A DNA stretch of 64,000 nt, from positions 1-64,000 of the forward strand of contig NZ_LMPZ01000003.1 of assembly GCF_001424025.1 (NCBI RefSeq), written 5' to 3'. The position numbers and the translations under genes are program-made. The stretch is from Brevundimonas sp. Leaf363. GTDB taxonomy: Bacteria; Pseudomonadota; Alphaproteobacteria; Caulobacterales; Caulobacteraceae. Position 1 is the stretch's first letter. Every line of letters starts with the position of its first letter. Shown here in pieces: positions 41,125-43,607 of the stretch. The notes under the pieces are model-generated. The model was not told the origin of the DNA. It ran no database searches and saw nothing but the letters and a program-made list of their open reading frames with translations.

Positions 41125-41760
41125 ATGCGCCAGTGCGAAACCTCGACCGGGCGTCCGCGCGAGTTCTCCGCTGTGCTGGAGCGCATCGGCGCTCGCCCGG
41201 GCCAGAAACTGTTTCTGGGCGAGGTGGTCGAGGCGTTCGGGGAGCGCGCGTTCGGCGCCGTGATGCTGCTGTTCGCCATCATCAACATGCTGCCCTGGCC
41301 GCCCGGCGGCACGACGATCACCGGCGCCCCCTTGCTGTTTCTGTCGATGGAGCTGGCTTGGGGGCGCGACAGCCTGTGGCTGCCAGGGTGGATCGAGCGG
41401 GCGTCCATCAACCGCAAGACCTTTCGCGACCTGTCAGCCCACTTCATGAAGGCGATCCGCTTGAGCGAGAGGCTGTCTAAACCCCGGCTGGCTTTTCTGA
41501 GCGGGCCGTTCGGGCAGGGCCTGGTCGGGCTGGCGTGCCTGTTTCTGTCCATCGTCCTGGTGCTGCCGGTGTGGGGTGGCAACCTGGTCCCCGCGATCGC
41601 CATCGGCCTGTTTTCACTGGGGATCATGCAGCGAGACGGGCTTGCGATCATCCTGGGCTGGATCGTCACGGGGATCTCCGCTGCGATCATCGTCCTGGCC
41701 TGGCGCCTGATCGTCGGCGTCTTCGTCGAGGGCTGGGATTGGGTCCAAAATCTGGTTTGA
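41125..41760 (+). CDS. ExoD family membrane protein (paralogue 1)
   Basis: A 211-residue inner-membrane protein of the ExoD family, linked in rhizobia to exopolysaccharide synthesis and alkali tolerance. The family signature GEVVEAFGERAFGAVMLLFA lies at about 32-51, then INMLPWPPGGTTITGAPLLF. Four to five hydrophobic helices are predicted. It is followed 77 nt downstream by a second ExoD-like gene of similar length, so the pair arose by tandem duplication. The role in polysaccharide production is inferred from the family only. Confidence 0.87.
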   Translation: MRQCETSTGRPREFSAVLERIGARPGQKLFLGEVVEAFGERAFGAVMLLFAIINMLPWPPGGTTITGAPLLFLSMELAWGRDSLWLPGWIERASINRKTFRDLSAHFMKAIRLSERLSKPRLAFLSGPFGQGLVGLACLFLSIVLVLPVWGGNLVPAIAIGLFSLGIMQRDGLAIILGWIVTGISAAIIVLAWRLIVGVFVEGWDWVQNLV

Positions 41761-41837
41761 GACTTACCGATCGTTCAGTGGCGCTGCGTCCCGGCAACGC
41801 CTAGATGCACGTCACCCAATCGCGAGCGCCTCCGGCC

Positions 41838-42479
41838 ATGCCCGACTACGACTATCAGGCTGACGCGCGACCCTTCTCGAAGGTGGTCGCGGACATCGGC
41901 GGTCAGGACGATCCCAAGCTCTACCTGGGCGAATTGGTGAACGCGTTCGGCGAGCGCGGCATGGGTGCGATGATGCTGTTCTTCGGCCTGCTGAACCTGA
42001 TCGCCGGGGCAGTGCCGGGATCGACGACCATTCTGGGCATCCCGCTGCTGGTGGTTTCGATCCAGTTGGTGTTCCGCGGCGACCAGCTGTGGCTCCCGCG
42101 CTGGGCGTTGAGGCGCAGCATCGACCGCTCGACCTACCGCCGAGCGGTGGGACGCGCCCTACCCGCCCTCAGAAAGATAGAGCGCCTGACACGGCCACGC
42201 CTGTCGATCATGACCAGCGATGCATCGGAAATCCTGATCGGCGTGGTCAGCAGCGTGCTGTGCGTCATCCTGATCCTGCCGATCTGGGGCGGCAATCTGG
42301 CGCCGGCGCTGATCGTCGCCACGTTCGGCTTCGGCCTGATGCAGAGGGATGGCGCTCTGGTCATTGTCGGTTGGCTGATGTTCGCCGCCGCCGGGATCGC
42401 GGTGTGGCTGGCCTGGAACATCGTGTCCGAATTTCTGTTCGCCGGGCTTACCTGGGCCGGCAATCTGATCGGCCGGTAA
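41838..42479 (+). CDS. ExoD family membrane protein (paralogue 2)
   Basis: A 213-residue protein with the same architecture as its upstream neighbour: LGELVNAFGERGMGAMMLFF, GAVPGSTTILGIPLLVVSIQ, a basic middle (RRSIDRSTYRRAVGRALPAL) and two C-terminal hydrophobic segments including LPIWGGNLAPALIVATFGFG. The ATG at 41838 was chosen as the family-like start. The shared LPxWGGNL-PA motif in both paralogues supports duplication. Its stop codon directly abuts a terminator on the opposite strand. Confidence 0.87.
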   Translation: MPDYDYQADARPFSKVVADIGGQDDPKLYLGELVNAFGERGMGAMMLFFGLLNLIAGAVPGSTTILGIPLLVVSIQLVFRGDQLWLPRWALRRSIDRSTYRRAVGRALPALRKIERLTRPRLSIMTSDASEILIGVVSSVLCVILILPIWGGNLAPALIVATFGFGLMQRDGALVIVGWLMFAAAGIAVWLAWNIVSEFLFAGLTWAGNLIGR

Positions 42480-42481
42480 AG

Positions 42482-42514
42482 CAAAAGGGCCGCCGCGTCG
42501 CTGCGACGGCCCTT
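42482..42514 (-). terminator. Rho-independent terminator of the candidate small transcript
   Basis: On the minus strand AAGGGCCG (5' arm) and CGGCCCTT (3' arm) pair, with an inner 3-bp extension around a short loop, followed by TTGCTTT. The U-tract is on the minus strand, so it terminates RNA made from the 42.6 kb side, not the exoD genes. Confidence 0.75.
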
Positions 42515-42556
42515 CATTGTCTGATCGCGCTGCGATCGAAACCTTGCCTGAAAGGA

Positions 42557-42619
42557 TCAGGCCCGGGCCTCCAACGAGGTCCAGGTCGCGGCCGCTCGCG
42601 ATTGATGACAATGAGACAC
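42557..42619 (-). CDS. 20-codon ORF with 17-nt Shine-Dalgarno match
   Basis: It starts at GTG 42619 and stops at TGA 42559-42557. The peptide begins MSHCHQSRAAA and ends WTSLEARA; it is His/Arg/Ala-rich with one Cys and one Trp. The upstream GAAAGGAGGTGATCCAG is complementary to the last 17 bases of a standard 16S rRNA 3' end (CTGGATCACCTCCTTTC), far beyond a normal 5-7 nt match. The aligned spacing is close because the match runs into the start codon. The TGA is immediately followed by the anti-Shine-Dalgarno element. It may be a leader peptide, or the match may serve ribosome binding rather than peptide production. Confidence 0.5.
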   Translation of the reverse strand: MSHCHQSRAAATWTSLEARA

Positions 42620-42670
42620 TGGATCACCTCCTTTCAGATACGCGGCGCAAAGTCTGCCGCACGCACGGAG

Positions 42671-42697
42671 AGTTAGGCCGATCGGGCCGCTTGGCAA
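42671..42697 (-). promoter_or_regulatory. Weak candidate promoter of the small transcript
   Basis: Minus-strand TTGCCA (42697-42692) and CTAACT (42676-42671) are 15 nt apart. The pair resembles the Caulobacter housekeeping consensus (TTG... and GCTANAWC-type). Spacing and -10 are imperfect. Confidence 0.35.
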
Positions 42698-42726
42698 GCG
42701 CCCATATCAATAACGCCGGAACGCGA

Positions 42727-42776: not shown

Positions 42777-43607
42777 TTACTGGAACAGCGACAGAACGAG
42801 CTGCGGCGTCTGATTGGCGATGCTGAGCGCCTGGACCCCCAGCTGCTGCTTTGTCTGCAGGGCCTGGAGCTTCGCGCTTTCCTTCGCCAGATCGGCGTCC
42901 ACCAGGTTGCCGACGCCGGATTCCAGCGCGTCCGACAGCTTGCCCACGAAGGTGGTGTGGGTTTCCAGAGCCTTCGACTTGGTGCCCAGACGCGCCAGGG
43001 CGCCGGAGACATTGTCGATGGACTCATCCACATCCGTCAGGGCGGCCTGGGCCGCTGAAAGCGTGTCGATACCCTGCGAGGCGGTCACGGTGACGGTTGT
43101 GGACCCCAGCGACATGTCTTCGGCCGAAACCGTCAGGGACGAAGTCCCGTCGGCGTTGGCCAGAGCCTGGAAGCCGGTCGCGCTTTGTTCGAGCAGGTTG
43201 ACCCCGTTGAACTCGGCGTTGGCGGTGACGCTGGCGATCTGGTCGCGCAGCGCCTGGAAGTCCTCGTTCAGCGCCGTGCGCGCCGCGGAGCTGAGCGACT
43301 CGTCGGTCGCTGCAAGGGCCTTCTCCTTCATCTGCAGCAAGAGGTCGGAGACCGTCTCGCCCGCCGCCAGCGCCACATCGACCGCGGCGACACCACGATC
43401 GAGCGACTGTTTCACCGCGCTCAAGGCACCGATGTCGGAGCGTTGGCCCTGGGCAATCGCCCAGATGGCCCCGTTGTCCTTGGCTGAAGCCACCTTCTTG
43501 CCGGTGTTGATCCGGTTTTGGGTGATCTGCAGTTCGGTGTTGGTCGCGTTCAGGTTCTGGAGCGCGATCATCGCGCCCACGTTGGTGTTCACCGAGCTCG
43601 AGAGCAT
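42777..43607 (-). CDS. Flagellin
   Basis: A 276-residue flagellin, the filament subunit exported by the flagellar type III system. The N-terminal D0/D1 region (SVNTNVGAMIALQNLNATNT, QNRINTGKKVASAKDNGAIW) and the C-terminal region (LQALQTKQQLGVQALSIANQ) are conserved, and it ends LFQ. The variable central domain is minimal, which gives the short length typical of Caulobacterales (FljK/FljM type). It has a sigma-54 promoter, a strong terminator, and flaF, flbT and flmG upstream. No transport signal peptide is expected. Confidence 0.96.
   Translation of the reverse strand: MLSSSVNTNVGAMIALQNLNATNTELQITQNRINTGKKVASAKDNGAIWAIAQGQRSDIGALSAVKQSLDRGVAAVDVALAAGETVSDLLLQMKEKALAATDESLSSAARTALNEDFQALRDQIASVTANAEFNGVNLLEQSATGFQALANADGTSSLTVSAEDMSLGSTTVTVTASQGIDTLSAAQAALTDVDESIDNVSGALARLGTKSKALETHTTFVGKLSDALESGVGNLVDADLAKESAKLQALQTKQQLGVQALSIANQTPQLVLSLFQ

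Follow-up and report, generated by a model that had tools for sequence, protein, structure and literature searches.

The minus strand of the analysed DNA of Brevundimonas sp. Leaf363 (one stretch of 64,000 nt, in the following called the window) carries, in the gap between a flagellin-like gene at 42777-43607 and the convergent gene at 41805-42479, a unit of about 180 nt in which an extended Shine-Dalgarno (SD) sequence is followed by an open reading frame (ORF) of only 20 codons. This raises the question whether such a unit is kept for its peptide, for an RNA or for the act of translation itself. A preliminary description had proposed an isolated small RNA gene bounded by terminators, whose ribosome site would be masked by a complementary element directly behind the stop codon. 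Its coordinates and sequences are correct on direct reading of the minus strand, and both bounding hairpins with their TTTT can be read directly in the sequence. Here, we present a comparative analysis of this locus and its relatives, which points, with a probability of about 0.5, to a stand-alone small RNA, gated by its translation, to which 30S subunits dock and which exerts its effect as RNA. The features of the locus are as follows.

42755-42726, minus strand: terminator of the flagellin gene, a perfect 11-bp hairpin, then TTTT (read from the sequence)
42671..42698, minus strand: possible promoter, CTTGCC (42698-42693), 16-nt spacer, CTAACT (42676-42671); picked by eye, unscored
42483..42664, minus strand: probable transcript of about 180 nt, the 5' end deduced from the possible promoter and the 3' end from the terminator
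42643-42487, minus strand: RF01867 match, 87.2 bits (gathering score 75)
42635-42619, minus strand: extended SD GAAAGGAGGTGATCCAG, 17 nt matched to the 3' tail of 16S rRNA, including the G of GTG (from the sequence)
42557..42619, minus strand: 20-codon ORF from GTG (42619-42617) to TGA (42559-42557), VSHCHQSRAAATWTSLEARA
42607..42613, minus strand: 5' strand of helix P1, CATTGTC, codons 3-5 (double changes in 5/7 pairs, 47 sequences)
42546..42562, minus strand: stop-codon hairpin GCCTGA-TCCTT-TCAGGC, predicted in a 30-nt folding window; overlaps TCCTTTCAG
42515..42521, minus strand: 3' strand of P1, GACAATG, abutting the 5' side of the terminator (covariation, consensus fold)
42483..42512, minus strand: intrinsic terminator GGGCCGTCGC/GCGGCGGCCC, then TTTT (read from the sequence)

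The candidate promoter boxes resemble boxes picked by eye 5' of the relatives' copies. A simple scanner of the window found no sigma-70-type consensus at this place, and it missed both terminators, since it demands five T in eight bases.

Assignment to the CC2171 family

The locus is an above-threshold member of RF01867, the CC2171 sRNA, which was named after Caulobacter and is typed by Rfam as sRNA; the match covers the full model (1-159 of 159) with 87.2 versus 75 bits. Besides a conserved 5' block, the Rfam consensus includes P1 and the terminator, and the long-range helix CATTGTC/GACAATG as well as the 3' terminator hairpin are both present in the window copy. Two weak matches elsewhere in the genome (34.2 and 29.3 bits) were considered as paralogues and rejected, being devoid of the SD/start block and apparently driven by terminators. 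The RNA thus belongs to an already catalogued family; what the present analysis adds is the maintained start and stop, the complement to the 16S tail and the range across the class.

Landt et al. 2008 is reportedly the founding paper of the CC2171 sRNA. In the open literature searched, neither a function of this RNA nor a description of its 16S complement was found. The available portions of PMC5082802, PMC2873474, PMC3927594, PMC5988900, PMC11005374 and PMC6943124 do not mention it, that of the Rfam 15 paper tabulates RF01867 among the structures improved by one covarying pair (PMC11701678), and that of a study on sRNAs in Mesorhizobium huakuii assigns MH_s33 to RF01867 (PMC5596092). For Caulobacter ncRNAs, mostly intergenic, ribosome profiling is said in the accessible part of Schrader et al. 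2014 (PMC4117421) to show that the regions are untranslated. This group-level statement counts against translation of the CC2171 RNA, whose inclusion in the group is not visible in that part; for RF01867, the comparative signs of a maintained ORF described below stand against it.

The extended Shine-Dalgarno sequence and the range of the element

The ribosome site had been described as the complement of the last 17 bases of 16S rRNA. This holds on condition that the species' own 16S is alike: GAAAGGAGGTGATCCAG is an exact 17-nt complement if the 3' end matches GGCTGGATCACCTCCTTTC, which is how the 16S end reads where it was found, in five of 21 genomes searched (own and relatives, six loci). 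The 16S gene gave 0 matches in the own assembly. This assembly is rated 99.99% complete, yet the rRNA operons seem to be missing from it. AAAGGAGGTGATCC is present once in the genome, the expectation for a random 17-mer being 0.0004. The computed duplex of the 17 nt with the 16S tail amounts to -32.2 kcal/mol versus -8.7 kcal/mol for GGAGG, which is spaced 6-7 nt from the start codon. The site is also conserved, as had been asked of it: AAGGAGGTG occurs in 66/67 of the RF01867-found elements and the GATCC extension is exact in 44/67, counts that are not independent of the SD, as the model itself covers this region. Since the extension is exact in 44 of 67, full complementarity does not seem to be strictly needed.

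In an order-wide search of 299 genomes, 148 match RF01867 at E<=0.001 and 41 score above gathering; in 17 further loci scanned, 14 of which come from named genomes, the model passes gathering in four and the SD/start block is found in all 17. The exact block (AAGGAGGTGATCC-N-RTG-TC) is present in 34/67 genomes of the class (own included) versus 0/182 others of the phylum, as counted from the kinship column of a phylum sample of 249 genomes. A search of named genomes with the block returned at least 117 stretches, and nearly all of the 117 listed show a short ORF. Among the 80 titled matches listed, two lie outside the Proteobacteria (Virgisporangium and a Thermoproteota MAG), both being long ORFs of other genes, and the remainder are alphaproteobacterial except for three labelled merely Proteobacteria; the orders among the listed matches include Caulobacterales, Rhizobiales, Rhodobacterales, Sphingomonadales, Rhodospirillales and other groups. 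When one mismatch is tolerated, the block occurs in 95/385 genomes of the class, the reversed pattern in 0. The element is usually single-copy; one genome (G310) has two matches, one of them with a mismatch. Within the genus, 8 of 27 genomes (own included) are without an RF01867 match and the block pattern was likewise found in 0/8 of them (positive controls 2/2), so that the element can be lost or is dispensable in some species.

For comparison, 197 distinct elements with SD block, RTGTC and an ORF of at most 40 codons were kept from 220 loci and sorted by N-terminal type. The 23 excluded loci comprise 13 duplicates, two weak matches (L002, L003), one contig end (L079), three without an exact block (L057, L193, L218) and four with longer or open ORFs (L072, L142, L147, L161). 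The 69 RF01867-found loci (L005-L033, L181-L220) were taken regardless of ORF length; the set includes 67 of them, whose ORFs have 18-28 codons, and of the two outside it L193 has a 21-codon ORF and L218 no block match. The joint recurrence of the SD/start block, P1-like pairing in most groups and a terminator argues, at the level of sequence comparison, for one homologous element.

A maintained reading frame with a drifting peptide

The short ORF of the preliminary description is borne out by the relatives, in which the start slot and the stop position are kept and the peptide drifts. With up to two mismatches allowed, the start slot reads GTG or ATG in 104/104 genome matches. When one mismatch at most was tolerated, the class gave 96 matches; the mismatch falls on the start codon in six, all six of them TTG; the five TTG-start loci fetched have ORFs of 24-30 codons and terminators. 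In the CC2171-type elements GTG is used 74 times and ATG 21 times, the search pattern having admitted these two alone.

The first in-frame stop lies at codon 18 in 22/23 Rhodobacterales-type elements (in the 23, TGA 7, TAG 12, TAA 4) and in 28/29 of the sphingomonad-type (in the 29, TAA 14, TGA 14, TAG 1), at codon 26 in 10/10 of the Hyphomonas-type and at codon 14 in 7/7 of the Bradyrhizobium-type, with two or three stop codons used within each of these four sets. In 29 other elements, of the MSS-type, it falls between codons 22 and 36, and every one of the 95 CC2171-type elements has it between 18 and 30, the overall range in the 197 elements being 14-36 codons. In frames +1 and +2 the first stops are scattered, or arise within the first codons from the conserved start block. 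In two congeners (G230, G240), one base inserted after GTG causes the unchanged TCTCATTGTC to be read in another frame; the ORFs then regain the frame and terminate at the usual GAGGTCCGG..TGA. Twenty class loci were fetched, picked for variety; a short ORF of 22-34 codons with a terminator is present in 15 of them, a 56-58-codon ORF with a terminator in three and neither in two.

Beyond codon 6, substitutions at codon positions 1/2/3 number 108/122/105 in 52 disjoint pairs, and the 250 changed codons in these pairs comprise 54 synonymous and 196 nonsynonymous ones. A third-position excess is absent in the 52 pairs, and purifying selection on the peptide is unsupported by these plain pair counts. 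Among the marks of a small protein gene, start, frame and stop are thus maintained and selection on the peptide is not apparent. This pattern is read as selection on translation over a set distance, probably not on the product. RNA structure that holds third positions could also give the lack of an excess and so mask a peptide gene.

That the unit is a small mRNA encoding a short functional peptide, with the extreme SD merely reflecting strong expression, is the alternative that survives best and is nevertheless unlikely. It would explain the conservation of start, frame and stop, and residues do recur within clades (SH.. at the start, and an EQP[LS]-like motif near the end of many MSS-type ORFs). 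However, the peptides differ between clades past the first residues and are without a third-position excess (108/122/105), the N-terminal residues change with the P1 pairing described below (HC, HS, HQ, HR, HL), the N-terminal block is read in another frame in the two congeners with the insertion, and the EQP codons sit in a covarying hairpin. The peptide would gain from four loci with a 56-59-codon ORF, by eye an exported protein with a signal peptide. In these (L147, L230, L231, L242) the SD/start block leads the longer ORF, which is followed by a terminator-like hairpin, and the products look by eye like small exported proteins with a signal-like start and a Cys/Ser/His-containing tail; here the mini-ORF has possibly grown into a real protein.

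A long-range helix across the first codons

The preliminary description had expected a fold that translation would disturb, and to this extent it is supported, the fold being P1, which spans codons 3-5 and shows compensatory changes. The P1 pairing of the CC2171-type elements joins CATTGTC in codons 3-5 to GACAATG, which abuts the terminator on its 5' side, and variants preserve the pairing (CATAGTT/GACTATG, CATTCTC/GAGAATG, CACCAAA/TTTGGTG, CATTGTT/AACAATG). All seven pairs (G-U allowed) are formed with the own partner region in 74% of 90 elements, versus 22% when the partner region comes from an element whose 5' strand differs. RNAalifold recovers P1 unaided. In 47 of the 95 CC2171-type sequences, 97.3% of the P1 cells are paired and double changes occur in 5/7 pairs; doubly changed cells number 18 against a shuffled mean of 3.3, with 0/500 shuffles reaching 18 and no slide coming near, these cells being counts of sequences, not of evolutionary events.

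In 27 MSS-type sequences, P1 reads GTGA/TCAC before the terminator, with 93.5% paired and double changes in 3/4 pairs (five cells), and, close to the ORF end, a hairpin whose loop has four bases shows double changes in 7/7 pairs. In columns 82-99 of the MSS-type alignment (A4), this kind of covarying hairpin has a CAGC-type loop and contains the codons EQP in many sequences; a similar GGGCAGCCC hairpin is seen 3' of the stop in many Rhodobacterales-type elements. Sphingomonad-type elements carry CATGGT(T)CAGC opposite GCTGACCATG at the place of P1, conserved with little variation, too little for the fixed-offset test. This test gave P1 no support in the Rhodobacterales- and Hyphomonas-type sets, and a best-helix search of post-start bases against the 3' region found no excess (11/197 elements with 0/20 shuffles, about 9 expected). 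Terminators were found by one rule in 182/197 elements versus 9/189 control segments.

The attempt to find one start-codon helix common to all clades, with the 3' half of the SD pairing with later codons in a pseudoknot with P1, failed. At a fixed register a 4-bp partner was found in 133/197 elements against a shuffled mean of 104, and for the variable bases the own value was 0.19 versus 0.10 for swapped ones. Consensus folds show a start-codon hairpin in two clades, with little or no covariation because its strands hardly vary. A helix of this kind common to all clades is left as a hypothesis.

Pairing of the Shine-Dalgarno sequence within the RNA

The masking of the SD by the bases behind the stop codon stands in the window copy, where TCCTTTCAG (42556-42548) is the exact reverse complement of CTGAAAGGA (42637-42629), and is weakly conserved beyond it. 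Among 19 loci of the same genus, nine keep at least six Watson-Crick pairs between GAAAGG(A) and the post-stop bases, three of these nine sharing ORF and post-stop sequence with a fourth; in the other ten, G186 reaches six pairs via a different 5' segment and nine have 3-5. Taken as the best SD:post-stop pairing, this means nine pairs in the window copy and G221, eight in G106, seven in two loci and six in four, and 3-6 in the remaining ten, mostly via other segments. The stop-codon hairpin GCCUGA-UCCUU-UCAGGC uses the same bases as TCCTTTCAG; its arms read GUCUGA/UCAGAC in five congeners, and a UCCUU/GCCUU loop is seen in some members of the genus. Pairing of the SD with the 3' UTR shows no excess over shuffles in the 95 CC2171-type elements (mean z -0.15). 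As a general mechanism the SD/TCCTTTCAG switch was therefore rejected, with the pairing kept in part of the genus, at chance level against shuffles and its bases engaged in a local hairpin; in close congeners such a switch is possible. Compensatory changes, for which the preliminary description had proposed to search the relatives, were found in P1, a different long-range helix.

SD:3' UTR pairing is stronger than in shuffles in Rhodobacterales-type elements (-1.64), where CACCTCC/CATCTCC is conserved, and SD:ORF pairing lies above chance in all groups, though not equally so (CC2171-type -0.85, MSS-type -1.34, Bradyrhizobium-type -2.48, sphingomonad-type -0.47). For the best helix of the SD with all downstream sequence, 26/197 elements were unreached by 20 shuffles and about 9 were expected, a modest excess obtained with mono-nucleotide shuffles. 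Accessibility was predicted by folding at most 24 elements of each group. The Rhodobacterales-type is predicted to be closed (SD unpaired 0.20 versus 0.45 in shuffles, start 0.13 versus 0.45), and the start codon is predicted to be more open than in shuffles in the CC2171-type (0.59 versus 0.45) and closed in the Bradyrhizobium-type (0.00 versus 0.35). Because predicted accessibility and SD pairing differ by clade, internal sequestration of the SD appears to be clade-dependent, and one mechanism may not fit all clades. An SD-sequestering switch is plausible in the Rhodobacterales-type clade, and in some clades the SD may be toggled by an internal 16S mimic. In L064, L070, L089, L104 and other Rhodobacterales-type elements, CACCTCC/CATCTCC mimics the 16S tail about 110 nt past the start, in the 3' part of the RNA, and is able to pair with the SD of the same molecule. 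The motif shared by the elements is an SD and not an anti-SD as in sRNAs of the SisA-D type.

Genomic context

The nearest downstream gene lies on the same strand in 76 and on the opposite strand in 117 of 193 cases. Clusters of neighbouring proteins, based on mechanical ORF calling, are mostly clade-specific and none is common to all clades; one cluster of 12 proteins spans the Rhodobacterales- and Hyphomonas-type, and three others include one member from a second clade. Because the neighbours are mostly clade-specific and the downstream strand is mixed, the element does not serve as leader to a conserved operon, in keeping with the convergent orientation of the downstream gene in the window and with the lack of a conserved downstream gene among the clades compared. 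A flagellar link was rejected, as none of the neighbours is shared by all clades and the flagellin neighbourhood looks incidental. The 12-protein cluster, with the sequence shown for L065, presumably resembles ArfB-type ribosome rescue factors, which may be coincidence.

A proposed translation-gated RNA and its alternatives

Comparison supports the view that a near-complete complement of the 16S tail, a frame leading to a clade-fixed stop and P1 are kept in this family and that the peptide drifts. Docking, translation, the two states and the output of the CC2171 RNA are what we infer from these sequence patterns. A 30S subunit requires single-stranded RNA over roughly 15 nt immediately past the start codon, and strong SD sequences can offset structure at the start site by keeping the subunit nearby. 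P1 starts at about +7 and so has to open before initiation; docking can precede this opening, given the computed energies of the 17-nt duplex and of GGAGG. In the proposed course of events, the extreme SD would let a 30S subunit dock while P1 holds the start region folded. Accommodation of the subunit and translation of the short ORF would melt P1 and the stop-proximal hairpin, and P1 would re-form after termination. The RNA would alternate between a closed state, 30S-docked or free, and an open, translated state, as set by ribosome loading. Its output at the RNA level could consist in a 3' segment that is exposed or hidden, in its own stability or in the 30S subunits held. In a bolder version, which we consider improbable, this ancient, usually single-copy alphaproteobacterial RNA would be a monitor of free 30S subunits, docking them via the 16S-tail complement and being opened by product-indifferent translation, and would thereby signal or buffer ribosome availability.

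According to a further alternative, the RNA would be a decoy or sponge that sequesters free 30S subunits or anti-SD-type sRNAs through its anti-16S segment, and the long SD would bring the ORF along as a by-product. The strength of the computed duplex with the 16S tail (-32.2 versus -8.7 kcal/mol for GGAGG) suits this idea; yet a by-product ORF is not expected to keep its stop with interchanging codons, to restore the frame after indels or to limit changes of the start to GTG/ATG/TTG, and the 3' part of the 16S complement is inexact in 23/67 RF01867-found elements, which makes a sponge quite unlikely. Distinctly improbable, too, is an ordinary base-pairing, trans-acting sRNA with a seed in its 3' half, in which translation just tunes activity or lifetime: it fits a stand-alone, terminator-ended RNA of about 180 nt, with no neighbour common to all clades, that is catalogued in Rfam as sRNA CC2171 and, in the available part of the report, as MH_s33 in Mesorhizobium huakuii (PMC5596092), but conservation across clades resides in the SD/start region and P1, not in an obvious unpaired seed, and the middle and 3' regions are clade-specific. 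This alternative overlaps with the translation-gated RNA favoured here.

Several known systems bear a likeness to the translation-gated RNA. In leader peptides and attenuators, e.g. the trp leader or peTrpL of Sinorhizobium, translation alters folding near a terminator, and the act rather than the product is conserved. Like them, the CC2171 RNA has a short ORF that, when translated, would change the fold beside a terminator; unlike them, it is a unit by itself with no downstream gene common to the clades, and its ORFs show by eye no run of regulatory codons. Dual-function sRNAs such as those of the SgrS or Pos19 kind also carry a short ORF in a small RNA. Their peptide is regarded as functional, whereas conservation of the peptide was tested in the CC2171-family ORFs and not found. 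Extended-SD initiation in Staphylococcus aureus, as described in the available part of the source, involves SD pairing close to the start codon and small ORFs (PMC13009471). Start-proximal extended pairing and a small ORF are shared with the present case; in contrast to the staphylococcal sites in that part, the complement here is 15-17 nt long, unique in the genome and situated on a stand-alone, structured alphaproteobacterial RNA.

The maintenance of an ORF without that of its peptide, together with the class-wide range, suggests that this RNA is more interesting than its catalogue name. If the translation-gated reading is true, an sRNA family named after Caulobacter would be a class-wide gene that keeps the act of translation and not its product. 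With no common downstream gene to regulate, it would form a stand-alone counterpart of control by leader peptides and a natural test of the longest possible SD pairing on a structured start site. Some RNAs annotated as non-coding would then carry functional start and stop codons.

Further observations at the locus

The 5' leader of the window copy looks about 13 nt longer than those of the relatives. Many of these (e.g. L005, L018, L069) have a TTCAACA-like motif a few bases 5' of the SD, which the window copy is without. On the plus strand, the tandem ORFs 41125-41760 and 41805-42479, the second of which converges on the sRNA gene, look paralogous to one another, and both look ExoD-like.
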